This document shows, in pieces, positions 16,526 through 30,237 of a stretch of 64,000 nucleotides of DNA. The notes beneath the pieces are model-generated. The model was not told the DNA's origin. It saw only the letters and a list, made by a program, of their open reading frames with translations, and searched no databases. How positions within the stretch are numbered: position 1 is the stretch's first letter; every line of letters begins with the position of its first letter. The stretch spans positions 804,610-868,609 of the forward strand of contig NZ_SOBW01000008.1 of the NCBI RefSeq assembly GCF_004364975.1, read 5' to 3'. Both the position numbers and the translations under genes were made by a program. The DNA comes from Gelidibacter sediminis. GTDB lineage: Bacteria > Bacteroidota > Bacteroidia > Flavobacteriales > Flavobacteriaceae.

Positions 16526-17095
16526 TTATAAACGTTTTCTAATTCGGCTAAGTGCCTGAGCTGTAATGCCAATATATGAGCTGATGTATTTTAACGGAAT
16601 AACTTTTAGGAGTTCTGGGCGTTCCTTAAAGAGCTTCATATAGCGCTCTTCAGCACTAAGGTTTAATAGGTTCTGCTCACGTTTAGATTTGATTAAAAAG
16701 AGTCGTTCCGCTGTTAAGCGACCAATGAGGTTGCCAATTTGTGTGGTTTTATAAACTTCTTGTAAGTCGTCATAAGAGATGCTCAAAAGTGTTGTCTCCG
16801 TGAGTGCTTGAACCTGATAAGCGGACGGTGTTTGGGTTAGAAAGGAGTCATATGCACTGACAAACTGATCTTTAAAACTAAAACCAAAAGTGATTTCTTT
16901 TTCTGGATTGTCTTTAGGTATAAATAAACGTACAACACCTGATTCAATGAATGAAATATAATTTTCAATCTCATTGACTTTTAAAAAAACGGACTTTTTA
17001 GGAATAACACGACGGTGCAATTTTGAAGTGAAAAAATCCCAATCTTCGTCGGCTATAATGGCAATTTGATCAAGATAAGCTCTGATTTGATTCAC
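16526..17095 (-). CDS. Crp/Fnr-family transcriptional regulator
   Basis: 189 residues: a cyclic-nucleotide-binding-like beta roll (to about 115; FIESGVVRLFI, EITFGFSFKDQFVSAYDSFL) and a C-terminal helix-turn-helix (PLKYISSYIGITAQALSRIRKRL region). No N-terminal cysteine cluster, so it is not a classical oxygen-sensing Fnr. This is the common Bacteroidota Crp-like type whose ligands are mostly unknown. It lies between the desaturase and the NO reductase genes on the same strand, but a terminator at 17272 separates it from the latter. Confidence 0.9.
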   Translation of the reverse strand: MNQIRAYLDQIAIIADEDWDFFTSKLHRRVIPKKSVFLKVNEIENYISFIESGVVRLFIPKDNPEKEITFGFSFKDQFVSAYDSFLTQTPSAYQVQALTETTLLSISYDDLQEVYKTTQIGNLIGRLTAERLFLIKSKREQNLLNLSAEERYMKLFKERPELLKVIPLKYISSYIGITAQALSRIRKRL

Positions 17096-17271
17096 GGTGC
17101 TGTTATGAGGGTTTTACGAAGGTGCAAAGATAAGGATTTGGCTTGGTTTGACAATTTCAAACTTAGAGGTTTAAAACATGATAGATGATCGCACTGATGT
17201 TGCAAATAATGTCTCATCACCAAAATGGTTATGAACCAAGATATAAAGTTGAATTAGCATTATGGAAATAT

Positions 17272-17304
17272 AAAAAAGGTCAGTATATGCTACTGACCTT
17301 TTTT
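17272..17304. terminator. Strong bidirectional terminator after norB
   Basis: AAAAAAGGTCAGTA and TACTGACCTTTTTT make a perfect 14-bp stem around TATGC. It lies 17 bases beyond the NO reductase stop on the minus strand. Confidence 0.9.
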
Positions 17305-17320
17305 AAGTGTTTTAATATAT

Positions 17321-19549
17321 TTAATGTCCTACTTTTTTTCTTTTAAAGTTATATAATGTTTCATCTATCGTAAACCAACAGAAGTAAAAAATTCCCACTG
17401 AGAAAATAACATCGCCAATCATGCGTAACCATTTTAAGGTTTGGACTACAGGAGAGTATAATAAATCTGCATCTCTCGCAAATGAATAGCCTTGTGTTAT
17501 GGATGTATACGCTTGAATAATTCCTATAGGTAATAAACTAAAAACAACCATAGCTACCAATCCAATGTTTAACAACCAGAAAGCGCGTTTCAATTTTGTG
17601 TTTTCCCATATACGATCAGAATAAAAACGAAGACAAATAATAATGAAGCCCATACCTAACATGCCATAAACACCAAATAAAGCGGTATGTGCATGGACGG
17701 CGGTGGTATTCAAACCTTGTATATAGTACAGTGCAATTGGCGGATTAATCAAGAACCCGAATACACCGGCACCAATAAAATTCCAAAAGGCAACAGCAAT
17801 AAAGAAAAAGATGGGCCATTTGTATTTTTGAATCCAATCTTGACTTTTTAACAGGTTCCAGTTCTCTCTAATTTCAAACCCCATTAAGGTTAAAGGCACT
17901 ACTTCTAGCGCACTGAATGTAGCGCCTAGCGCTATGGCCTGTACAGGTGTTCCGGAGTAGTACAAATGGTGTAATGTTCCAATAATACCACCAGCTAAAA
18001 AGATGGCTGCAGACGCTACAGAGACACGACCTGCAGTTTTTGTGGAAATCACTTTCATTCTCGAAAATATAAAGGCGATCACTACGGTTGCAAACACTTC
18101 AAAGAAGCCTTCCACCCATAAGTGAACTAACCACCACCTCCAATAATTGATAACTGGGAGACTGCTGTTTTCTCCATACATTAATCCAGAGAAAAAGAAT
18201 AAGCCAATGGCCACCACTGACACAAGCAAGATGATTACAAGATCTCTAGATTCATCTTTCTTATTAATGGCGTACATTAAATGTCTTCCCACCATGATCA
18301 CCCATAATACAAGGCCAATGGCTAAGACATATTGCCAAAAACGGCCTAAATCCATATACTCATAGCCTTGATGCCCAAAGAAAAAATTGGTGGTTAAATC
18401 GAGAAACTGATGTACCCCCAACCATTCTCCAAGCATAGAGCCTAACACTATAATTAGTAAGGCAAAGAATAGAAAATTGATTCCAAAAACTTGATATTTC
18501 ATTTCTTTACCAGAAATCATCGGTGCCAAGAAGAGTCCAGTAGCTAACCAAGTGGCAGCAATCCAAAAGATGGCCAACTGTGTATGCCAGGTTCTGGTGA
18601 TGGAATAAGGTAAAAATCGTGACAAATCATAACCAAAAAACGCTTGTCCCTCAACTGTATAATGCACGGTCAGAGCTCCTAATATAACTTGCAAGCCAAT
18701 CAATAATGAAATGACTATAAAGTATTTTAACACCGCTTTTTGAGAGCCCACCAATTGTAATTTGGATAACGGATCTAAACCTGGTTTTTCTAATATTTCA
18801 CCTTTTTCGTGATTTCTTAAATAATAGTAGGTTAAGATCCCGATGAACAATAACAGCAATACAATGGACAATCCTGACCAAATTAGTGAATCATCAGTAA
18901 TTAAATTGTCAATTAAAGGCTCATGTGGCCAGTTGGATGTATAGGTGTAATCTTTTTCTGGCCGATTGGTGCTTGCCGCCCAAGACGTCCAAAACAAAAA
19001 GGCATTAAGCTGTCCTAATTTTTCAGTATCGGTTAAAGCACCTTTCGGAATGGCATATTGCTCATGGCCTTCAGAAAAAATAGAACTATAATGTTTGATG
19101 TTTTCTGAAATAGCATCCCAGCGCACCTGAGATATAGTGATGGTTTTGGTAGTAGGGTTGAAGGTGTTCGTCTTAACATCCTTAATTAAGCGGGCCTTGA
19201 TGGCTGCCTTTTTTTCCACATCAAGGTCGTCATAAGCAGTATTGTAATCCTTTTGTGCCCAATGCTCCAGCATATAAACTGCTTCTTTATGTATCCAATC
19301 TGCCGTCCAATCAGGAGCTACATAACTTCCGTGACCCCAAATAGAGCCAACTTCCATACCGCCAATGGACTCCCATACATTTTGACCAATCTGAATATCG
19401 GCCTTGGTGTAAACAACTGAATTGGTTTCTTTAACAATCACCTGTTCAGGAATGGGAGGTTGGGTTTGATACACTTCAGTCCCAATCCAGATTAGGACGA
19501 CGAATGATAATACGACTACGCTGATAAATGCGATCCAAATTTTTCTCAT
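17321..19549 (-). CDS. norB: Quinol-dependent nitric oxide reductase (qNOR)
   Basis: A 742-residue, 14-helix inner-membrane enzyme that reduces two NO to N2O with electrons from quinol. The long N-terminal extension fused to the catalytic core (IGQNVWESIGGMEVGSIWGHGSYVAPDW, given as its blocks IGQNVWESIGG and GSIWGHGSYVAPDW) marks the single-subunit qNOR type. The core holds HLWVEGFFEVFATV with the catalytic-site glutamates of NO reductases and the paired histidines HLYYS and HAHTALFGVYG that bind heme b3 and non-heme iron. The cupin gene ends 20 bases upstream, so both are likely one transcript. Role: NO detoxification or partial denitrification; no other denitrification gene is present here. 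Confidence 0.95.
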   Translation of the reverse strand: MRKIWIAFISVVVLSFVVLIWIGTEVYQTQPPIPEQVIVKETNSVVYTKADIQIGQNVWESIGGMEVGSIWGHGSYVAPDWTADWIHKEAVYMLEHWAQKDYNTAYDDLDVEKKAAIKARLIKDVKTNTFNPTTKTITISQVRWDAISENIKHYSSIFSEGHEQYAIPKGALTDTEKLGQLNAFLFWTSWAASTNRPEKDYTYTSNWPHEPLIDNLITDDSLIWSGLSIVLLLLFIGILTYYYLRNHEKGEILEKPGLDPLSKLQLVGSQKAVLKYFIVISLLIGLQVILGALTVHYTVEGQAFFGYDLSRFLPYSITRTWHTQLAIFWIAATWLATGLFLAPMISGKEMKYQVFGINFLFFALLIIVLGSMLGEWLGVHQFLDLTTNFFFGHQGYEYMDLGRFWQYVLAIGLVLWVIMVGRHLMYAINKKDESRDLVIILLVSVVAIGLFFFSGLMYGENSSLPVINYWRWWLVHLWVEGFFEVFATVVIAFIFSRMKVISTKTAGRVSVASAAIFLAGGIIGTLHHLYYSGTPVQAIALGATFSALEVVPLTLMGFEIRENWNLLKSQDWIQKYKWPIFFFIAVAFWNFIGAGVFGFLINPPIALYYIQGLNTTAVHAHTALFGVYGMLGMGFIIICLRFYSDRIWENTKLKRAFWLLNIGLVAMVVFSLLPIGIIQAYTSITQGYSFARDADLLYSPVVQTLKWLRMIGDVIFSVGIFYFCWFTIDETLYNFKRKKVGH

Positions 19550-19569
19550 GTGTTCTAGTAGGTTTTAAG

Positions 19570-19908
19570 TTAGGCAACAACATTATTGACGCGCTCAACA
19601 CTGTCATTTTTTGACAACGATAGGCGTATAATAGCGTCTTGGGTACAGTGTAAATCGTGAGGCACGTTTGGATCTAAAGTGATGAGATCTCCCTTTTTTA
19701 GTTGTAGTGTTTGACCATTGACACCAAAATCTATCGCTCCTTCAAAAATCTCTACAACAATAGAAGAGGGGGCTTTATGTTCTTTCATTTGGTGGCCTTT
19801 GCGCATGGCAATTCTAATTTCCTTTGAGTGGTTGCTCTCTAGGAGAACAGTGACTGCTGGCTTGTCTGATTTATAAACCAATTGATCTGTTAGTGATGCT
19901 GTTTTCAT
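19570..19908 (-). CDS. Cupin-domain protein in the NO reductase operon
   Basis: 112 residues forming one cupin beta-barrel. Motif-like segments are HQMKEHKAPSSIVVEIFEGAIDF and LKKGDLITLDPNVPHDL with a His (PHDLHC) that could bind metal. Such small cupins are often found beside NO or denitrification genes in Bacteroidota, but the function is not established. It is co-directional with norB (20-base gap) and preceded by a dyad at 19941 placed like an operator. Confidence 0.85.
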   Translation of the reverse strand: MKTASLTDQLVYKSDKPAVTVLLESNHSKEIRIAMRKGHQMKEHKAPSSIVVEIFEGAIDFGVNGQTLQLKKGDLITLDPNVPHDLHCTQDAIIRLSLSKNDSVERVNNVVA

Positions 19909-19960: not shown

Positions 19961-20300
19961 ATTGATGTAAATGATTTAAGTTTTTGCGTGGAATGACTGA
20001 AATTTTATGGCTGTGGCCAACACTTTCAGTGTGATGTTGTGTATTATGTTTAAGTTCTTTTCTAATCTTTAGAAAAACACTCCTCCGAGTTTCACGCACT
20101 ATAAAAAAGCGGTTATATAAACTTTTTACAGATTCAAAGAGATTGCACTTTGCCATTTGCACTAAAATTTTAGCTTTAAAAGCAGGAGGGAAGTCTTCCG
20201 CTTTTAAAATAGTTGTTACATTCACTTTTCCTCCAAAATACGATGGTTTTGCTCTGAAAATGACGGGTCTTAATCTGTACTCACAAGACTTAGAAAACAT
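19959..20300 (-). pseudogene. Shortened Rrf2-family regulator without C-terminal cysteines
   Basis: The first ~66 residues follow the Rrf2 winged-helix domain (MFSKSCEY, VNVTTILKAEDFPPAFKAKIL, ESVKSLYNRFFI), but with unusual changes: GIRA is RLRP and the GPYGGF wing turn is SLYNRF. Normal Rrf2 proteins have 130-150 residues with a three-Cys [Fe-S] cluster in the middle. Here there are 113 residues, the frame jumps to FLKIRKEL, which resembles the family's late helix, and no Cys occurs after residue 52. An internal deletion of the cluster region is the likeliest explanation. It could still be a cluster-free DNA-binding protein. It lies upstream of and co-directional with cupin-norB, where an NsrR-like NO sensor would be expected. 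Confidence 0.55.
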
Positions 20301-20609
20301 AGTGGTGATTTAGTCTGCAAAAGTAAATCAAAAATCTATAAAGGACAATTTTATCCTATATAAAATTATGAGTATTTTTCATGGTAATTTATAGGGTTGA
20401 ATGTCAATAAATTAAGTTACTATAATGGCTGAGCAGACGGCAATGACAGATTATATTATTTAAAAGTCATACTTTAAAAAAAAATCCGCTATGTTTACAA
20501 TTCAAGAGAATTTATACCATATAACATAAAAGTCGCACCCTAAGAATTGTAAAAATAGATAACAATCAAAACATAAAGTTTGTTATTTGTTTTCAAACAT
20601 TTTAAAGTA
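20301..20609. other. Divergent intergenic region
   Basis: 309 AT-rich bases between the Rrf2-type gene (-) and the symporter gene (+). It holds the dyad at 20338-20362 and presumably the divergent promoters. I see no small gene or terminator in it. Confidence 0.6.
20338..20362. promoter_or_regulatory. Dyad upstream of the Rrf2-type gene, candidate autoregulatory site
   Basis: AAAGGA (20340-20345) and TCCTAT (20354-20359) with AT-rich flanks TATA/ATATA. It lies about 40 bases before the regulator's start and resembles the dyad before the cupin gene. Confidence 0.4.
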
Positions 20610-22118
20610 ATGATTGCATCAGAAACCTTAGTGACTTATATGTGGATTTTATTGGCCGTTTACGCAGCGGTCATTTTATTTTTTGTGATTAGAGGTGCAC
20701 GTAAAAATAAAGATCTTCAGGATTATGCGGTTGGAAATATTGGGTTCCCTGCTTGGGTTGTCGGATTATCTTTGGCAGCATCTATGACCAGTGCGGCAAC
20801 CTTTATCATCAATCCAGGATTTATAGCGCTATACGGTATTTCAGGTGTGATTTCTTTTGCCTTGGTATTGCCCCTTGCAGCATTTATTTCGTTGATTGTG
20901 TTTACCAAAGGTTTTGCCAAACAAGGGAAAGCCGTTAAGGCCACTACAATGGCACAATGGATTGGTAAGCGCTATAAAAGTAAAAACTATGCTATTTTCT
21001 TCGCGTTTGTCGCACTCTTATTAATGACATTTATCGTATTGATTAATGTTGGGCTTACCCAAGTCATTTCAAAATCTCTGAATGCAGAACCTTTTTACGT
21101 GTTGATGGCGATTACCACGTTTGTATTTGGATATATGATGTTTGGTGGTGCAAACTCTATGGTTTATACCAATACTATTCAAGCGATTATCATGTGTATA
21201 GTGGCCATCATTTTAATTGGTTCTGGTGCGGAATATTTTACGGACGGGATAGATGGTTTTATGCAAAAATTAAATGCTATCGACCCTAATTTAACTAAGC
21301 CAACCAATCCGTCAAGTTTCCTTTTTCGTGATTATTTTGAAATTATCGTCACCCAAATTGTCATTGGTGTCGCTATTGTTTGTCAACCGCACATCATCAC
21401 CAAATCATTATTATTAAAAGATGCAACTAAAGTAAACACGTATCTATTTAGTGGAATTGCGTTTATGGTCATCTTCTTTTTGGTGGTTATTGTTGGGCTT
21501 TACGCCCGTATCAATTTTCCGGATTTCACCGTCAACGGCACAACCTTAAAAATGGATGAAATCATTCCAACCTATGTGGTCACAAAATTCTCTGTAGGTG
21601 TTGGACTAGTAATTGTGGTGGGGCTAATTTCCGCAGGATTATCTACCTTGGAGAGTTTGATACAATCCTTATCCATCACCATTACGTCAGATATTATTAA
21701 TCCGCTGTTTAAGGATAAGTTTACTAAAAACACTATTTCTATCAATAAAGCGGTAATCGTAGTACTAGGAATTGTGAGTTTCCTGTTGAGCTGGAACCAA
21801 ATTAAAAATCCGGATATTAGTGTGGCTATTTTCGCGCAAAACGGTGTGTATGCCTATTTTGCCGCTGCTTTTGTACCGGTGTTATTCGGAACATTCTTGA
21901 AAAACGTTTCTACAAGGTCTGTCTTTATTGCCAGCATCACCGCTATTGTGGTTCATTTTGGAATTTATTATGGCAGATTAACCCCGTATATGCAAGAGCC
22001 GGTTAACAATCCTGGAGTATCTGCAGCAATTGGAATTGTAGTATCACTCATTGTAGGGTATATATTTTATAAATTAGACGAAAAGAAACAACGTGGACAC
22101 ATTAGATTGGATAGCTAA
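20610..22118 (+). CDS. Sodium:solute symporter (SSS family)
   Basis: A 502-residue inner-membrane carrier of the SSS family (Na+/pantothenate-, proline- or monocarboxylate-type). It has about 13 hydrophobic segments, the early block DYAVGNIGFPAWVVGLSLAA with SMTSAATFI, and GLISAGLSTLESLIQSLS, the Na+-site helix of this fold. Substrate is not readable from sequence. I chose the ATG at 20610 (MIASETL) over 20580 because the first 10 extra residues do not fit a helix start. It overlaps the acyl-CoA ligase gene by 26 bases, and the downstream genes suggest a short hydroxyacid or keto-acid (inference). Confidence 0.9.
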   Translation: MIASETLVTYMWILLAVYAAVILFFVIRGARKNKDLQDYAVGNIGFPAWVVGLSLAASMTSAATFIINPGFIALYGISGVISFALVLPLAAFISLIVFTKGFAKQGKAVKATTMAQWIGKRYKSKNYAIFFAFVALLLMTFIVLINVGLTQVISKSLNAEPFYVLMAITTFVFGYMMFGGANSMVYTNTIQAIIMCIVAIILIGSGAEYFTDGIDGFMQKLNAIDPNLTKPTNPSSFLFRDYFEIIVTQIVIGVAIVCQPHIITKSLLLKDATKVNTYLFSGIAFMVIFFLVVIVGLYARINFPDFTVNGTTLKMDEIIPTYVVTKFSVGVGLVIVVGLISAGLSTLESLIQSLSITITSDIINPLFKDKFTKNTISINKAVIVVLGIVSFLLSWNQIKNPDISVAIFAQNGVYAYFAAAFVPVLFGTFLKNVSTRSVFIASITAIVVHFGIYYGRLTPYMQEPVNNPGVSAAIGIVVSLIVGYIFYKLDEKKQRGHIRLDS

Positions 22119-23598
22119 ATGGGCGGATTATACGCCTGAAAAAATTGCAATCACTTCGTATGACTCGAATAAAAGTTATACGTATAGCGACTTGCACAAC
22201 TATGCCAATCAATTAACTAAAAAATTTGCTGCACGCCATATAGAAGAAGGTGACAGAATAGCTGTTTTATCTGAGCACGGTTTGGAATATATTGTACTGT
22301 TTGTGGCGTGTCAGAGAATGGGCGTGATTATGGTGCCTCTAAATTACCGACTGTCGCAACGTGAGATTTCAAAGCTCATTGCCGACTGTACGCCAAGTTT
22401 ACTTATTTATAATCAGAACCATCAACCTAAAGTAGCACAACTCGCCAATCAAAATTTAAAAACAATTTCGTTTGACACCTTAAGAGATTACTATGAATCC
22501 CCTAGTGCTACTCCAGTAAAAAACTTCGAGATTAAAGAGGATAATCCTTTATTTATATTTTACACTTCCGGCACCACGGGTACTCCAAAAGGCGTTATTT
22601 ACACCAATAAGATGTTATTTTGGAACAGTCTCAACACGTCTATGCAACTCGGAATCACTTTTAGGGATTCTACCATTAACATTTTGCCTCCCTACCACAC
22701 TTCTGGGTGGAATGTATTTATCACACCTTTATTGCACAAAGGTGCTCATATAGGCATGTTAGAAAAATTTGATGCTGAAAAAACCTTGTGTTTGTTAGAA
22801 CTTAACAAGACCACCTTGTTTATGGCGCTTCCAACAATGCTCTTGATGATGCAAAAAGCACCTATTTTTAAAAATGTTAACCTCCGCAAATTACGTTATA
22901 TCATTTCAGGAGGCGAGAAAGTCCCTTCAGAACTCGTTGCCTATTGGAAAGAAGAAAAAAACATTTACATCAGGCCAGGCTATGGTTTAACGGAAGCCGG
23001 ACCAAGCATTACCTCGTTACATCATAAAATGGCGCATCTTAAACCAAATTCCATTGGGAAACCCAACTTTTATTTAAGTATAAAAATCGTCAATAAAAAA
23101 GGTGATGTGGTGCCGCCAACTGAAGTAGGGGAACTGTGCATTAAAGGCGATATTGTTACCCCTGGATATTGGAATAATTCGGTAAAAACAAATAACAAAA
23201 TAAAAAAAGGATGGCTTTTTACGGGCGACTTCGCCTATAGTGATGCAGAAGGTTTTTTGTATATGAAAGGCCGAAAAAATGACATGTATATTTCAGGTGG
23301 CGAAAATATTTATCCGCAGGAAATAGAAACCCAATTGGAAGCTATGGAAGCTATTGATAAGGCGGTAGTGTTAAGTGTAAAAGATGAAAAATGGGGCCAA
23401 TGTGGCATTGCCTTTGTAGCCTCATCAGACGCACAACTCTCTGTAGCTGAAATAAGGACATTTTTAAAACCTAATCTCGTCGCATTTAAACATCCTAAGT
23501 ATATCTTTATATTAAACGACATTCCGCAGACAAGTTTAGGGAAAGTATCCCGAAAACAACTCTTAACGTACTATAATACAATCACAGCCAAACCATGA
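22093..23598 (+). CDS. AMP-forming acyl-CoA ligase
   Basis: 501 residues of the ANL superfamily, starting at GTG. Core motifs: YTSGTTGTPKGVIYTN (A3, P-loop), GYGLTEAGPS (A5), GWLFTGDFAYSD (A7), RKNDMYISGGENIYPQEIE (A8) and SLGKVSRKQLL with the catalytic lysine (A10). It converts a carboxylic acid, CoA and ATP into acyl-CoA, AMP and PPi. The length is that of medium/short-chain FadD-like ligases, shorter than acetoacetyl-CoA synthetases. The start overlaps the symporter by 26 bases and the stop overlaps the hydrolase gene by 4, a tight operon. Likely substrate: the acid imported or released by neighbouring proteins. Confidence 0.92.
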   Translation: MDTLDWIAKWADYTPEKIAITSYDSNKSYTYSDLHNYANQLTKKFAARHIEEGDRIAVLSEHGLEYIVLFVACQRMGVIMVPLNYRLSQREISKLIADCTPSLLIYNQNHQPKVAQLANQNLKTISFDTLRDYYESPSATPVKNFEIKEDNPLFIFYTSGTTGTPKGVIYTNKMLFWNSLNTSMQLGITFRDSTINILPPYHTSGWNVFITPLLHKGAHIGMLEKFDAEKTLCLLELNKTTLFMALPTMLLMMQKAPIFKNVNLRKLRYIISGGEKVPSELVAYWKEEKNIYIRPGYGLTEAGPSITSLHHKMAHLKPNSIGKPNFYLSIKIVNKKGDVVPPTEVGELCIKGDIVTPGYWNNSVKTNNKIKKGWLFTGDFAYSDAEGFLYMKGRKNDMYISGGENIYPQEIETQLEAMEAIDKAVVLSVKDEKWGQCGIAFVASSDAQLSVAEIRTFLKPNLVAFKHPKYIFILNDIPQTSLGKVSRKQLLTYYNTITAKP

Positions 23599-24530
23599 AA
23601 CAGCTAAGCTTCCTTTTTGCATTTATTCTTTTTAACGCTTGTGTATATTCTCAAAAACCTATGAAAGAGCTACTTTCTGATTATGATTTTAAAAGCCAAA
23701 TGGTTACAGTGGACGATTTGGAAATCAGTTATATCAAAGAAGGTTCCGGAGAAAAAACATTGCTTTTTGTACATGGGTTGAGCAGTAATGCTGATGCATG
23801 GTCTAAAAATATTGATGCTCTTAAAAATGAGTATACCTGTGTGGCTTTAGATTTACCTGGTTATGGAAAATCTTCTAAACCTGAGGCAGATTACACAGCA
23901 TCATATTTTGCTGAAATTCTATACAAATTTATTGAAAAGTTAGCCTTGAAAAACATTATTTTGGTAGGTCATTCAATGGGTGGGCAAGCAAGTGTTAAAT
24001 TGGCTGTACATCATCCTGAAACTATAGAAAAACTGATTCTTGTGGCACCAGCAGGTTTAGAGCAGTTTTCTGAAGCTAGCGGTAACCTTATGAAATCCTT
24101 TTTAACACCGGAATCTGTTAAAAACACCACGGATGAACAAATTGTAAAAAACTACGCTTTAAATTTTCATGATCAGCCTGAAGAGGTTTCAAAAATGATA
24201 GCGGACAGAATCCGAATTAAAGAAGCTTCAGATTTTGATGCCCATTGCAATGCCATTGTTAACAGTGTTTCTGGTATGTTGAATGATCCAATTCACAACG
24301 ACCTGAAATCTATTTCGCAGCCCACATTGGTTATTTTTGGAGATAAGGATATGTTGATTCCAAACCGTTATTTTAATCCAACGCTTACTACTAAAGCGGT
24401 TGGTGAAATCGCGTTAAAGTATATTCCAAATGCTCGTTTGGAATGTATTGAAAATGCAGGTCATTTTGTGCAATTTGAAAAGCCATCTGAGGTTAACGCA
24501 CTCATCCAAGAATTTGTGTCTGGAAACTAA
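23595..24530 (+). CDS. Exported alpha/beta hydrolase
   Basis: 311 residues with an N-terminal signal (residues 1-20, LFNACVYSQ; possible lipobox Cys16, though FNAC is not canonical). Alpha/beta-hydrolase fold: HGLSS oxyanion region, nucleophile Ser127 in GHSMGG, acid in FGDKDMLIP and His in NAGHFVQFEKP. An esterase or lipase-like enzyme acting in the periplasm or on the membrane. It overlaps the ligase gene by 4 bases, so it probably releases an acid that the ligase activates (inference). Exact substrate unknown. Confidence 0.9.
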   Translation: MKQLSFLFAFILFNACVYSQKPMKELLSDYDFKSQMVTVDDLEISYIKEGSGEKTLLFVHGLSSNADAWSKNIDALKNEYTCVALDLPGYGKSSKPEADYTASYFAEILYKFIEKLALKNIILVGHSMGGQASVKLAVHHPETIEKLILVAPAGLEQFSEASGNLMKSFLTPESVKNTTDEQIVKNYALNFHDQPEEVSKMIADRIRIKEASDFDAHCNAIVNSVSGMLNDPIHNDLKSISQPTLVIFGDKDMLIPNRYFNPTLTTKAVGEIALKYIPNARLECIENAGHFVQFEKPSEVNALIQEFVSGN

Positions 24531-24617
24531 ATCAATTTTAAATTTAACATCATTCTATTTATTTAGAACCATAAGCAGGATGCCTTATAACCTACAGTTT
24601 CTGCTATATTTGAAACC

Positions 24618-26033
24618 ATGAAGACGAAGCTTAAAAAATTCACTGAATTTAGCAAAACGATATTGCCAAACGAAGCTAAATACCTTCAGGGACAATATCA
24701 ATTTGTCGATGAAGAAAAGCTTCAAATCATCCAATTGGTTATTGCCAATGCACTGTCTCAATCTACAAGAAAGGATTATGACGATGCCATAGATAAGCGA
24801 AAATATTCTTATATAAAAGATTGGATTGCACGGAAATTGCTAAGCATAGACGTTGATGCCACTATTGGTTGGCTCATGTCCTTGAATCAGAAAATCCTAA
24901 CGGATGCCATATCATCAAATGAAGAAAAGCAATTCCTGAACTATATCAGTGGTTATAAGGCAGTCGATTTTAATTTCCAGAATTTATATGAATTAGCCAA
25001 AGAATATAAGTCATTTCTATTGGTGAGGATGCGGTATAAGGACCATCAAGTCGTGGCTGATTTTATTAAGGAATTCAATCCTTCCTATTCAAAAGCCATC
25101 ACTATAAAGGAAAAATTATACACCGCCACAACTGAAATCACCAATCAATACACCCTCAATAATAACGAAACGAAGCATTTGGAAGCGTGGTTATTGGAAG
25201 TTTTTAATGATGATTTCATTAGCGGTAAAAACAGGTATCAGGCCTTTGTATTACTCGCCTTCATGTATACCAATTACAATGAAAATGATAAGTTAAAAGT
25301 GCTATTCGATCAAATTGACTTTTACTTCAGTCAAGGAAAAATGTATTCAAGACGTTTGTTATCCAATTATTATGCGAGTCGTGTACTACTGCATTCCAAA
25401 CAAGATGAATTGAAGGAAGCTGAATATTATGGCTATCTCTCCATCCGTCAAAACAACAATGACACCCTGATGTATTTGAATAATCTGGTTGCCATTTTGT
25501 TGCGTAATAACAAACCTGATAAGGCGTATCTGTTGTTGGAGAAACATAAAGATCTTTATAAGGAAACCCATAATTACCATCAAAAAATAGGGTATTGTTC
25601 CTACCAAATTCGCGTCTTATCTGAACTTCATAAAAACGAACTTGCGGAAGCTACCGCCAAAACTTTTTTGAGAAAGTATAAAAACGAAGTCTTAAAACAC
25701 CGTTGGCACCATTTTTTCACCTCCTATATTGGAACCTTAATCGCGCAGGAGAAATATGAAGACGTTTTAAAACTTTCCACAAAATTCGGACTCATAGAAA
25801 AGGAGGAAGAACGCCAGAAACAAAAGAATTATGTGCCAAATATTTCATGGAGTATATCCTTGTCGCGCTATATGGAAGGCAAGATCAATTCAACGCGTTT
25901 ATTGGACGAAATAAAGGCGCCACTCATAGATATCAAACCCACCACAAATCAAAAACAATTGATGATTAAGGTGATTGATCGGCTTTCAAAAAATTTACCT
26001 GAAGCCTTTTTAAAACTAAAGTCACATATCTAA
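24618..26033 (+). CDS. Large alpha-helical protein of unknown function
   Basis: 471 residues without a signal peptide or membrane segment. The whole length is helical and rich in charged and aromatic residues; blocks such as YQAFVLLAFMYTNYNENDKL, EAEYYGYLSIRQNNNDTLMY and NNKPDKAYLLLEKHKDLY look like degenerate TPR-type repeats. I do not recognise a family. A TAnnTTTG match (TATATTTG, 24605-24612) ends five bases before the ATG, which would give a nearly leaderless transcript. It lies between the hydrolase and the TonB receptor in a same-strand run and may be an accessory or regulatory factor. Confidence 0.75.
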   Translation: MKTKLKKFTEFSKTILPNEAKYLQGQYQFVDEEKLQIIQLVIANALSQSTRKDYDDAIDKRKYSYIKDWIARKLLSIDVDATIGWLMSLNQKILTDAISSNEEKQFLNYISGYKAVDFNFQNLYELAKEYKSFLLVRMRYKDHQVVADFIKEFNPSYSKAITIKEKLYTATTEITNQYTLNNNETKHLEAWLLEVFNDDFISGKNRYQAFVLLAFMYTNYNENDKLKVLFDQIDFYFSQGKMYSRRLLSNYYASRVLLHSKQDELKEAEYYGYLSIRQNNNDTLMYLNNLVAILLRNNKPDKAYLLLEKHKDLYKETHNYHQKIGYCSYQIRVLSELHKNELAEATAKTFLRKYKNEVLKHRWHHFFTSYIGTLIAQEKYEDVLKLSTKFGLIEKEEERQKQKNYVPNISWSISLSRYMEGKINSTRLLDEIKAPLIDIKPTTNQKQLMIKVIDRLSKNLPEAFLKLKSHI

Positions 26034-26190
26034 GTTTCTATAAAATTTCATAGCATATATAATGTGTCTATAGGATTTAAAGTCTATTTATAGTATAAAG
26101 TCACACTTAAAACCTTTTGGTTTTGCCGCGTTTTGTTTTGTAATTCATAATAGATTGCCACCTAAACGAACTCAATCCATATTCACAATT

Positions 26191-28680
26191 ATGAAAAAAC
26201 TACTCTTTTTACTAACCTTAATTGGTTCTTTTGTGGTTAACGCCCAAGATACAGGAACCGTAAGCGGCTTAATTACAGATGCCAAGGGCATGCCTTTATC
26301 TGGTGCAACTGTGTCTATTAAAATTCTGAATAAAGGTGCCATGACTGATTTTGATGGCCGTTATACCATTGAAAATGTCAATGTTGGCACGTATAACGTG
26401 GCTGTTTCCTATATTGGTTACGAAACGAATACCAAGAATATTTTGGTAACTGCTGGTCAAACAACCCAAGTGGATGTCTCTTTAAAAGATTCTGATACAG
26501 TGTTGGATGAAATTATCTTAACTGCAAACAAAAAGCCACAAAAAATTACAGATGTTCCAGCGACTGTAAATGTGATTACTGCGAGAGAAATTGAAGAATT
26601 TCCTAGCTTTAATATAGGTGAACTTGCGGCAAGACAAAAAGGGGTAGACTTTGTAAGAAGTGGTGTTTTAGGAACTGGAATTAACATAAGAGGTTTTAAT
26701 TCTGCTTTCAACTCTAAAAACTTACAAGTTACTGATGATCGTTTGTCTTCTCTGATTGCTACCGGATTGCCATTAGGCTCATTTTCTACGGTAACTAAAG
26801 ATGATATTGAACGAGTTGAAATTCTTTTAGGACCTAATGGAACACTTTACGGACCTAATGCGCATAACGGGCTTGTGAGTACCATTACAAAAAAACCTAG
26901 AACTTCTGAAGGCACAACTTTTGCAATTGGCGCAGGTAACCAAAGTGTTTTAACTGCAAGATTGAGACACGCACAAGTAATTGACGACAAATTTGCCTAT
27001 AAATTTCATTTTGAGAGATCTCAAGGAACGGAATATGATTATGTTGACAGTGTATATGTAGGCACAAAAGCTTACAAAGAACTTGAATTGGATCGCGATT
27101 TCGATTCCCAAAAATATGGTGCATCTTTATACTACAAGCCTACCAAAGGTTCTGAATTGATTGGTTATTACGGCCATAGTAACACGAACAATATTGGCGC
27201 TACCAATGCGGGGCGTAACCAAATTAAAGACTGGAGTATTGATGTGGCACAAGTAAAATTTGTGTCTAAAAACTTCTTTGCGAATACATACTATACTTGG
27301 AGTAAAACAGATGATACCTATGCCATGAATCAGCGTACCCAAAACTACGTTTCATTTATTGATAACGGATTTTCTGAACAGGAAGCCCGCGAGCGCTCCT
27401 ATACAGAGCAATGGTTTCCTACGGGTGAAGGAACGGGAATTGTGTTGCCACGAGGTGCGGTGTTTAAGGATGCTTCAAAACGTTTTAATGCTGAAGCGCA
27501 ATACAATAATAATTGGGATGCCTTTTACCTTACTCTAGGCGCTCAGTATCAACTTGACATGGCAGATTCTAAAGGAACTTATTTATTGGATGATGGTGGT
27601 ATAGATTTGGCACAAACAGGTATCTATACACAGTTGGAGTATAAATTAGAAGACTCAGGATGGGGATTTCTCCTTGGCGGTCGTTTGGATAACCATGATT
27701 TATACGGGTCCAATTTTATCCCTAAAGCTGCTATTACCAAAAAAGTAAATAATGGCACTTTTAGAATAACTTATGGTAAAGGAATTGCCGTGCCATCTAT
27801 TCTAAACTTAAAAGGAAATTTATTTGGTGGCTTAGTTTTAGGAAATGGGGAAGGTTTCACACTAAAAGATGGTACTAAAATTGCCAAATTGGATGTAGAA
27901 ACCATCAATTCTTATGAAATTGGCTACAAAGGCAAAATTTCAGACAAATTGTTTATTGATACGAATGCCTATTATAATCAGTCGGATAATTTTATAAGTC
28001 CATTAGTGAATGTTGCGGGTACGGCTACAGGAAACTTTGTGACGCATGTTGGAGACAAACCAATTGGTGAAGTTGTACAAGGGTCTAACGGTGCATTTAT
28101 ATTGACCTATTTAAACTTTGGCTATGTAGATACTTACGGACTTGATGTTGGCCTAAACTACTATTTTACTGATAGTTTTAGAGCGGCGTTTAATTACTCT
28201 TATTTTGATCGTGATCTTGACTTAACAGATATGGCTAACGATGGTAATTTAGATGGAAAAGTTCTTGAGAGTGAATTGCCTATCAATACACCAAACCATA
28301 AATTTAGCTTAGGGTTTCACTATAATCAAGGGAAATTTTACGGTTCTATTTTTGGACGTTATGTTCAAAAATACGATTTCTTCTCAGGAATTAATATTGC
28401 TGCGAAAACGCAAGACTTAGATGGTGATGGTGTAAATGAGATTGTTGAAAACGCTAGAGTTGGTAGAACTTGGAATTACGGTCAATTGGGAGGTTTTACA
28501 GTAGATGCTAATGCAGGTTATAACTTTACAGATAATTTGTCTTTAGGGATGAGCATTACAAATTTATTCAATGCTGAAGTAAGAGAATTTGTGGCGTCAC
28601 CAGTAATCAATACGTTGATTTCTTTTGAGCTAAAATACAAAATCAACTTCTTTAAAAATCAGACAGTAGCAACCAACTAA
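26191..28680 (+). CDS. TonB-dependent outer-membrane receptor
   Basis: 829 residues: signal peptide (SFVVNAQ), an N-terminal carboxypeptidase-regulatory-like domain (about 25-105; GLITDAKGMPLSGATVSI), a plug domain (VNVITAREIEEFPSFNIGELA, NIRGFNSAFN, LGPNGTLYGPNAHNGLVS) and a 22-strand-type beta barrel ending in FELKYKINFF. Imports a large or scarce substrate with TonB energy. No SusD partner is adjacent, unlike in typical polysaccharide loci, and the set of neighbours (hydrolases, ligase, hydroxybutyrate dehydrogenase) suggests an ester or oligomer. I chose ATG 26191 (MKKLLFLL); the in-frame start at 26155 would disturb the signal. Confidence 0.93.
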   Translation: MKKLLFLLTLIGSFVVNAQDTGTVSGLITDAKGMPLSGATVSIKILNKGAMTDFDGRYTIENVNVGTYNVAVSYIGYETNTKNILVTAGQTTQVDVSLKDSDTVLDEIILTANKKPQKITDVPATVNVITAREIEEFPSFNIGELAARQKGVDFVRSGVLGTGINIRGFNSAFNSKNLQVTDDRLSSLIATGLPLGSFSTVTKDDIERVEILLGPNGTLYGPNAHNGLVSTITKKPRTSEGTTFAIGAGNQSVLTARLRHAQVIDDKFAYKFHFERSQGTEYDYVDSVYVGTKAYKELELDRDFDSQKYGASLYYKPTKGSELIGYYGHSNTNNIGATNAGRNQIKDWSIDVAQVKFVSKNFFANTYYTWSKTDDTYAMNQRTQNYVSFIDNGFSEQEARERSYTEQWFPTGEGTGIVLPRGAVFKDASKRFNAEAQYNNNWDAFYLTLGAQYQLDMADSKGTYLLDDGGIDLAQTGIYTQLEYKLEDSGWGFLLGGRLDNHDLYGSNFIPKAAITKKVNNGTFRITYGKGIAVPSILNLKGNLFGGLVLGNGEGFTLKDGTKIAKLDVETINSYEIGYKGKISDKLFIDTNAYYNQSDNFISPLVNVAGTATGNFVTHVGDKPIGEVVQGSNGAFILTYLNFGYVDTYGLDVGLNYYFTDSFRAAFNYSYFDRDLDLTDMANDGNLDGKVLESELPINTPNHKFSLGFHYNQGKFYGSIFGRYVQKYDFFSGINIAAKTQDLDGDGVNEIVENARVGRTWNYGQLGGFTVDANAGYNFTDNLSLGMSITNLFNAEVREFVASPVINTLISFELKYKINFFKNQTVATN

Positions 28681-28691
28681 GTTTCTTAAGC

Positions 28692-29474
28692 ATGTCAAAA
28701 ATACAAGTGAATAACATTGAACTTGATTATGAAGACCATGGAAAGGGACAAGTGCTTCTATTGCTTCACGGATTAGGATCAACAAAAAAAGATTGGGACG
28801 CTCAAGTCCCTTTCTTTTCTAAAAACTATCGCGTTATTACGGTAGACTTAAGAGGCCATGGCAACTCTAGCATACCAACAGATGATTATGGCGTACTGGT
28901 GATGACTGAAGATGTCAAAACCTTTATGGACCTGTTGCAAATTGACAAGGCTACCCTGGTAGGGTTTTCAATGGGCGGCGCTATTGCTTTTCAGATGGCA
29001 GTAAGCCATCCCAACTATATTCATAAAATAGTGATTGTTAATAGTAGTCCGGATTTCAATAACATGGGAACCATTGGCGAAGAATTGCTTAATAGTAGAA
29101 CTCAATTTTTGAAAACTAAAGGCTTGAAACTACTAGCAAAAGAGATTGCGTTTAATATGTTTCCTGAACCACACCAGTTCAAATTGAGAAATGCCTTTGA
29201 AGAGCGATGTAAAAATAATAACCACAATGCCTATTATCAAGCTTTTGTGACTTTGATGAACTGGGGACTGGGAGCACAATTGGAGACAATTAAGGCAAGA
29301 ACACTTGTGGTGGCGTCTGATATGGATTATACACCTGTGGCCTTTAAACAGGCGTATGTAGAGAGGATGCAAAACGCACAGTTAGCTGTGATTAAAAATT
29401 CAAGACACGGTGTTGTTTTAGATCAACCAGACGCGTTTAATAAAGTGCTCGAAAAATTTTTAAAAAATGAATAA
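28692..29474 (+). CDS. Cytoplasmic alpha/beta hydrolase
   Basis: 260 residues without a signal. HGLGSTKKDW oxyanion loop, nucleophile Ser93 in GFSMGG, acid in SDMDYTP and His in SRHGVVLDQP. It resembles the enol-lactonase/esterase branch of the fold. It begins 12 bases after the receptor gene and overlaps the dehydrogenase gene by 8 bases, so it probably hydrolyses an imported ester or lactone to the hydroxyacid oxidised by the next enzyme (inference). Confidence 0.9.
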   Translation: MSKIQVNNIELDYEDHGKGQVLLLLHGLGSTKKDWDAQVPFFSKNYRVITVDLRGHGNSSIPTDDYGVLVMTEDVKTFMDLLQIDKATLVGFSMGGAIAFQMAVSHPNYIHKIVIVNSSPDFNNMGTIGEELLNSRTQFLKTKGLKLLAKEIAFNMFPEPHQFKLRNAFEERCKNNNHNAYYQAFVTLMNWGLGAQLETIKARTLVVASDMDYTPVAFKQAYVERMQNAQLAVIKNSRHGVVLDQPDAFNKVLEKFLKNE

Positions 29475-30237
29475 AATCGTACTCATTACAGGAAGCACTA
29501 GTGGTATAGGATTGACCATAGCGAAGAAATTCGCAAAGAATGGTTATCATGTAATGTTTCATGGTTTAGAAACAAACGGTGCTGAGATTGCAGAAAAAAT
29601 AGGCGCGAAGCATAAGGTAAAAGTGGCCTTTTCTAATGCGAATTTATTACAACCTGAAGCTGTTGAAGGTTTGATTGCGGAGACCATTTCTAAATTTGGA
29701 GCGTTGCATGTATTGGTGAATAACGCCGGAATTCAACATGTGTCGCCAATTGAAGACTTTCCAAATATCAAGTATGAAAACATTATTGCCATTAATATGA
29801 ATGCAGTATTCTATGCTTCAAAAGCGGCTTGGGGTCAGATGAAACAGCAGAAATTTGGTAGGATTATCAATATTTCTTCCGTCCACGGATTACGAGCATC
29901 CGAATTTAAATCGGCTTACGTGGCGGCCAAACACGGCGTCATTGGGATGACTAAAGTTTTGGCTTTAGAAGGTGCACCTTTTAATATTACCTGTAATGCC
30001 ATTTGTCCTGGCTACGTCAAAACACCTTTGGTGGAAGGCCAGATAAAAGATCAGGCCAAAGTCCATAATATGACGGAAGAAGAAGTGGTTGAAAAAGTCA
30101 TGCTTAAAAAGCAAGCCGTAAAACAATTTGTCCCAGCAAAAGCCATTGCAGATATGGCAATTTTGTTAGCCAAAGAATCTTCAACAACAATTACTGGGAC
30201 CTCATTCACCCTAGATGGCGGCTGGAGTGCCCAATAA
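29467..30237 (+). CDS. 3-hydroxybutyrate dehydrogenase-like SDR
   Basis: 256 residues of the classical short-chain dehydrogenase family: GSTSGIG nucleotide loop (8-14), NNAG, catalytic Ser in ISSVHGL, YxxxK as SAYVAAKHG, and LDGGWSAQ at the end. The blocks NNAGIQHVSPIEDFP, GLRASEFKSAYVAAKHGVIG and CNAICPGYVKTPLVEGQI are those of D-3-hydroxybutyrate dehydrogenase (3-hydroxybutyrate + NAD+ to acetoacetate). Related hydroxyacid dehydrogenases cannot be excluded. Last gene of the locus, followed by a terminator at 30271. Confidence 0.88.
   Translation: MNKIVLITGSTSGIGLTIAKKFAKNGYHVMFHGLETNGAEIAEKIGAKHKVKVAFSNANLLQPEAVEGLIAETISKFGALHVLVNNAGIQHVSPIEDFPNIKYENIIAINMNAVFYASKAAWGQMKQQKFGRIINISSVHGLRASEFKSAYVAAKHGVIGMTKVLALEGAPFNITCNAICPGYVKTPLVEGQIKDQAKVHNMTEEEVVEKVMLKKQAVKQFVPAKAIADMAILLAKESSTTITGTSFTLDGGWSAQ

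Follow-up and report, generated by a model that had tools for sequence, protein, structure and literature searches.

A conserved SusD-less TonB receptor locus of marine flavobacteria as a candidate system for esters or short oligomers of D-3-hydroxybutyrate

Polysaccharide utilisation loci of the SusCD type in Bacteroidota cluster a TonB-dependent receptor bearing a CarboxypepD_reg domain with an exported hydrolase, an inner-membrane transporter and catabolic enzymes. The same kinds of parts are found in a seven-gene locus of Gelidibacter sediminis, which lies at positions 20610–30237 of the plus strand in a stretch of 64,000 nucleotides (contig NZ_SOBW01000008.1, positions 804,610–868,609; hereafter the window) of a 3.56 Mb genome. 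Unlike SusCD loci, the seven genes include neither SusD nor a glycoside hydrolase or other carbohydrate-active enzyme according to Pfam and NCBIfam; instead, they encode esterase-type hydrolases, an acyl-CoA ligase and a 3-hydroxybutyrate dehydrogenase. Poly(3-hydroxybutyrate) (PHB) is among the commonest bacterial storage polymers, with 3-hydroxybutyrate as its building block, and soluble oligomers are set free when other bacteria attack it with extracellular depolymerases. A literature search covering open-licence PMC papers found no uptake route of PHB oligomers into Gram-negative cells. We suggest, with a probability of about 0.5, that this conserved locus serves marine flavobacteria for the TonB-dependent, SusD-less uptake and the catabolism of esters or short oligomers of D-3-hydroxybutyrate.

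Based on the open reading frames (ORFs), the locus starts with a gene for a sodium:solute symporter of the SSF family (SSS, 20610–22118), followed by an AMP-forming, FadD/MenE-like acyl-CoA ligase with a GTG start (ANL, 22093–23598) and an alpha/beta hydrolase whose N-terminus looks signal-peptide-like by eye (ABH1, 23595–24530). Then come an all-helical protein, a candidate sensor or regulator without a signal-like N-terminus (HEL, 24618–26033), and the TonB-dependent receptor with its CarboxypepD_reg N-domain and no SusD partner (TBDT, 26191–28680). The last two genes encode a PcaD/esterase-like alpha/beta hydrolase without a signal-like N-terminus (ABH2, 28692–29474) and a D-3-hydroxybutyrate dehydrogenase of the short-chain dehydrogenase/reductase (SDR) type (BDH, 29467–30237). 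An initial annotation made from the sequence had described seven same-strand genes without a SusD-like one, overlapping by 26 (SSS/ANL), 4 (ANL/ABH1) and 8 (ABH2/BDH) bases, and the ORF coordinates bear this out. The gene classes it proposed also agree with Pfam and NCBIfam (SSF, AMP-binding, Abhydrolase_1 twice, plug and TonB beta-barrel, TIGR01963).

The same gene order was searched for in other Flavobacteriia. A receptor scan of named species genomes gave 47 loci, and stretches of other genomes brought the number examined for order to 75; this set is biased to close relatives because the scan began from the receptor of the window. Seventy-two of the 75 hold the receptor at the threshold used (L070–L072 do not), and 46 of these keep the order SSS-ANL-ABH1-HEL-TBDT-ABH2-BDH. 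Forty-four are distinct, as L021 repeats L050 and L105 repeats L056; a further record, L035, is cut by contig ends. The gene order is fixed while the flanks change: the median distances over the 46 loci are −26, −4 and −8 at the three overlaps, as in the window, and any protein cluster other than the seven is shared by at most 11 of 55 loci. Cultured hosts from the species-genome scan include Gelidibacter, Winogradskyella, Tenacibaculum, Lacinutrix and others. Within the family, the receptor was matched in nine of 149 genomes (E 1e-60), six with the window's form (its own genome included), two with another form described below (G011, G080) and one with a distant relative (G024). It is present in eight of nine genomes of the genus, and its profile matched 22 of 395 genomes of the phylum (E 1e-120). 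A plasmid search with the receptor returned 407 records; in none did a match span 80% of the receptor, and identity stayed below 60% throughout.

The 3-hydroxybutyrate dehydrogenase-like enzyme named in the initial annotation compares closely with bacterial D-3-hydroxybutyrate dehydrogenases (TIGR01963, PDB 1wmb), which are its nearest PDB relatives. BDH scores 336.8 bits on TIGR01963, above the curated cut-off of 307.05. All 46 BDHs keep Q90, H140, K148, Q192 and W253, the residues whose equivalents we take to hold the substrate in these dehydrogenases; none of 11 FabG-like SDRs at other receptor loci does so. The window enzyme likewise has the tetrad N110, S138, Y151 and K155; Asn, Tyr and Lys are kept in 46 of 46, and so is Ser (45 by pattern, and one row with unread letters by eye). 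The P. fragi equivalents of this Asn-Ser-Tyr-Lys catalytic tetrad are named in PMC2572057. In the family sample, TIGR01963 is above its cut-off in six of 149 genomes. These coincide with the six genomes in which the receptor has 69% or more identity to that of the window, and in each the locus BDH is the sole such hit (Fisher p 6e-9 for co-occurrence with the receptor, uncorrected for kinship). In the phylum sample, six of 395 genomes have the family, four of them among the 22 receptor genomes (Fisher p 1e-4). The window BDH differs from the described dehydrogenases in that its family-sample members stand only beside this TonB receptor, in carriers without a polyhydroxyalkanoate (PHA) synthase. 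It is well supported that the locus handles 3-hydroxybutyrate.

The spacing of the genes indicates how the locus may be expressed. The gap between ABH1 and HEL is 87 bases in the window (median 2 over the 46 seven-gene loci), and that between HEL and TBDT is 157 bases (median 153, range 72–165 over the 46 loci with start codons placed mechanically). Because of these gaps, the locus is likely to form two transcription units. In an alignment of the HEL–TBDT gaps, one nearly invariant word was found, and little else aligns between genera. Counted over 47 rows (the window and 46 loci, duplicates included), AGTC[AG][CT]A occurs in 46 HEL–TBDT gaps against 1.2 from letter shuffles, the exception being L019, and upstream of SSS in 44 rows against 3.2, the exceptions being three Tenacibaculum loci (L043–L045); as the word was picked out by inspection and the rows share ancestry, the shuffle figures are descriptive. 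Upstream of SSS, at least two copies are present in 37 of the 47 rows, spaced 65–67 bases apart in the rows checked.

At the locus of the window, three copies of the full box, AAAGTC[AG][CT]AC, lie on the plus strand. The distal copy (AAAGTCATAC, 20463–20472) is placed 66 bases before the proximal one (AAAGTCGCAC, 20529–20538) upstream of SSS, and a putative -7-like element, TATTTG (20584–20589), follows 53 bases after the AGTC of the latter. The third copy (AAAGTCACAC, 26097–26106) lies in the HEL–TBDT gap, with a putative -7-like TAGATTG (26151–26157) 52 bases after its AGTC. Such elements give 34 counts at +52 in the 47 gaps and, upstream of SSS, 29 counts at +52 and 32 at +53, overlapping patterns counting one site twice. 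The genome of the window contains 24 exact matches to AAAGTCRYAC against 50 for the reversed control pattern. Among the 24, the locus boxes fit the promoter arrangement best: the proximal copy before SSS and the copy in the HEL–TBDT gap each have a -7-like element at +52 or +53, and the remaining locus match is the distal partner of the former. Near fits are L152, at +54 and +63 and without a long frame, and L148, at +55 within a frame of 145 codons; the L137 and L151 matches also lie outside long frames and are without such a -7-like match. A wider box regulon may exist in this genome. Rfam gave no match up to E 1 on 20250–26250, and therefore the box does not belong to any RNA family listed there. 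Both transcription units are probably switched together through this box.

The receptor is above the cut-offs for the plug (PF07715, 59.3 bits) and the beta-barrel (PF00593, 113.5 bits), and it matches the SusC/RagA model weakly (99.1 bits, cut-off 368.25). Its match to a siderophore receptor model is also weak (88.6 bits, cut-off 223.5), and sequence comparison with the PDB brings up Cir, BtuB, PhuR and FhuA among its relatives, the similarity lying mostly in the plug. These likenesses would suit a receptor for a siderophore or cofactor whose neighbours are merely co-located. Such an arrangement is very improbable given that order and overlaps stay fixed in 46 loci as the flanks change, that both units are preceded by the same box and that the receptor co-occurs with BDH in six of six genomes. 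Distant receptor relatives (34–40%) in L108, L115 and L025 have LytTR response regulators and histidine kinases nearby (identified by name in L108, grouped by similarity in L115 and L025), are without the cassette and perhaps serve another substrate. A methyl-accepting chemotaxis protein with a Cache domain is encoded at L119:14685-16730, beside two ligases and a distant receptor relative.

As for the source of the acid, a search of 15 genomes (14 carrying the receptor in either form and one without) turned up no PHA synthase domain, and therefore 3-hydroxybutyrate probably comes from outside the cell. According to a seawater study of poly(3-hydroxybutyrate-co-3-hydroxyhexanoate) degradation (PMC10317964), Flavobacterium is among the genera network-linked to the polymer, which is circumstantial only. 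In most rows printed, ABH1 has a signal-like start by eye, in some with a lipobox-like Cys. Like the intracellular short-chain PHA depolymerases (NF050089), ABH1 and ABH2 are alpha/beta hydrolases, and they are the closest to that model in the genome of the window; they differ in scoring far below its cut-off, and ABH1 looks exported. The two lead the NF050089 matches in eight of eight carrier genomes (nine genomes scanned) with 76–94 bits, narrowly in some. Among solved relatives, 8ynv, named poly(3-hydroxybutyrate) depolymerase, ranks second for ABH1 and fourth for ABH2, alongside many other esterases.

The best NCBIfam models of ANL are FadD- and MenE-like, all below cut-off. A CoA-transferase subunit pair (PF01144) is encoded away from the locus in eight of nine genomes, including the cassette-free G013; the ninth, G057, is a fragmented assembly. 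Such a pair could activate acetoacetate, and therefore the ligase would not be needed for this step. A dispensable ligase also agrees with the import of some different natural product bearing a 3-hydroxybutyryl ester or amide, such as a decorated polysaccharide, a lipid or a signal (e.g., 3-hydroxybutanoyl-homoserine lactone), from which the hydrolases would free 3-hydroxybutyrate as a side product while the ligase would activate the other acid. BDH, by its cut-off, PDB relatives and residues, fits this equally, and TonB receptors generally suit scarce or large ligands. However, no further cluster exceeds 11 of 55 loci, so the block is not accompanied by a conserved enzyme for sugars, amides or lipids (minor clusters were left unannotated), and we consider this origin of the acid unlikely.

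A second form of the locus occurs in other Bacteroidota. In 14 of the 72 loci, the receptor stands with a FabH-like gene, SSS, ABH1 and ANL, FabG being labelled in nine and HEL in five; FabG and the FabH-like protein replace ABH2 and BDH. The FabH-like genes lie beside the TonB receptor, symporter and ligase at L063:13341-14432, L023:11694-12680, L106:16759-17781 and 11 more places. The catalytic triad of FabH is Cys-His-Asn; in these proteins the active-site Cys is kept, and Thr and Tyr replace His and Asn in 14 of 14. KSIII-like acyltransferases with other altered triads exist, such as ChlB3 with Cys-His-Asp, as given in PMC9573744. In these 14 loci (mechanical ORFs), no intergenic box precedes a cassette gene, save one in L122. 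In a receptor tree of 61 rows, the 46 BDH-form rows fall on one side of a single branch (Shimodaira–Hasegawa-like approximate likelihood ratio test 99), among the FabH-form rows; the tree was built quickly, is rooted at the midpoint and has long branches.

One genome, G528 (L158:1270-13517), has the order FabG-FabH-SSS-ANL-ABH1-HEL-TBDT, the last five genes as in the window. A hydrolase and a BDH (61% identity, same motifs) lie divergently beside this FabH-form cassette, so both inner modules are present. This is a second link between hydroxybutyrate oxidation and the core, and it suggests that the inner module has been exchanged. The receptor, hydrolase, symporter and ligase common to both forms, together with FabG-like SDRs devoid of the hydroxybutyrate residues, would also accord with a core for esters of other short or medium 3-hydroxy acids (e.g., 3-hydroxyvalerate or 3-hydroxyhexanoate from mixed PHA), in which each pair, BDH with the ligase or FabG with the FabH-like protein, would be adapted to chain length. 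For the form of the window this seems rather doubtful, as its BDH keeps all five residues in 46 of 46.

HEL has no Pfam or NCBIfam family above cut-off. Its residues 120–471 may form a Rap/TPR-like solenoid (TPR, tetratricopeptide repeat), and Rap-type TPR regulators are a tentative comparison for this part. It is found in eight of 149 family genomes, always with the receptor, i.e., in all receptor genomes except G024 (Fisher p 2e-12, uncorrected for kinship). HEL is a family dedicated to this locus, and we infer that it is the best candidate there for a sensor or regulator. A GbsR/CudC-like helix-turn-helix gene is present at the cassette in L109:5977-6474 and in six other FabH-form loci; it never occurs together with HEL in 60 loci, which is confounded by taxonomy.

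Divergent from the locus, the window carries at 16526–19908 a Crp-like regulator gene (cNMP_binding) and genes named by eye as nitric-oxide-reductase-like (norB-like) and cupin-like. The norB-like and cupin genes are kept upstream in three of 55 loci (L026–L028). An uncultured Gelidibacter has a receptor with 94% identity to that of the window, and its locus likewise carries the norB-like and cupin genes upstream.

Based on the above results, we propose the following pathway. TBDT would carry the oligomer or ester into the periplasm, where ABH1, exported by its sequence, would cut it. SSS may then take the acid or dimer into the cell, and ABH2 would complete the hydrolysis in the cytoplasm. 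BDH, by family cut-off and residues, is predicted to oxidise D-3-hydroxybutyrate to acetoacetate, which would be activated by ANL or by the CoA-transferase pair encoded elsewhere. Activated acetoacetate is then split to acetyl-CoA by an established pathway.

Several observations weigh against this proposal. The genome of the window has no PF10503 depolymerase (E 1e-10), and therefore no known secreted enzyme of its own would let the cell begin with the polymer. The NF050089 cut-off of 300 is reached by neither ABH1 (105.5 bits) nor ABH2 (99.3 bits), and G013, which is without the cassette, has a hit of 82 bits; because of both facts, the lead of the hydrolases on this model counts little. Two of the six BDH genomes of the phylum sample (G165 and G305) carry the gene in other neighbourhoods without the cassette; the G165 enzyme keeps the motifs, and that of G305 is without the Ser-x-His-Gly motif and has Tyr for Trp. 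With CoA-transferases encoded elsewhere, the ligase has no obvious task, and the MenE cut-off (330.15) is passed by its counterpart in the relative L023 (351.6), though not by that of the window (301.8). Furthermore, 11 of 12 FabH-form genomes screened have no TIGR01963 hit anywhere (E 1e-85), because of which 3-hydroxybutyrate may be only one of several acids served by the core.

The initial annotation had held that the receptor imports oligomers or esters and that the two hydrolases open them. This interpretation is supported in part: conserved gene order is strongly borne out and BDH is supported, while its import and hydrolysis steps, like the ligase substrate and the role of HEL, are still what we infer, with no depolymerase cut-off reached. 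The substrate class that it named is the best reading available, and the shared promoter box, the FabH/FabG form and the dedication of HEL to the locus are new. Joined into one account, which as a whole is tentative, these parts could make up the first TonB-dependent system for 3-hydroxyalkanoate oligomers. Cells without PHA synthesis would scavenge the breakdown products of the storage polyester of others (or of bioplastic) through a SusD-less receptor. HEL, an undescribed TPR family, would sense the substrate and act via the box, 52 bases ahead of the -7 element. Relatives would have exchanged the inner half for FabG and a FabH-like enzyme, with Cys-Thr-Tyr for Cys-His-Asn, that releases acids from esters directly onto CoA.

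The locus thus offers a testable candidate for oligomer uptake, with named parts, a promoter box and cultured hosts. It would be relevant to carbon flow in the sea and to what becomes of PHA bioplastic, and it draws attention to two groups of proteins that merit study: HEL and the FabH-like proteins with an altered active site.

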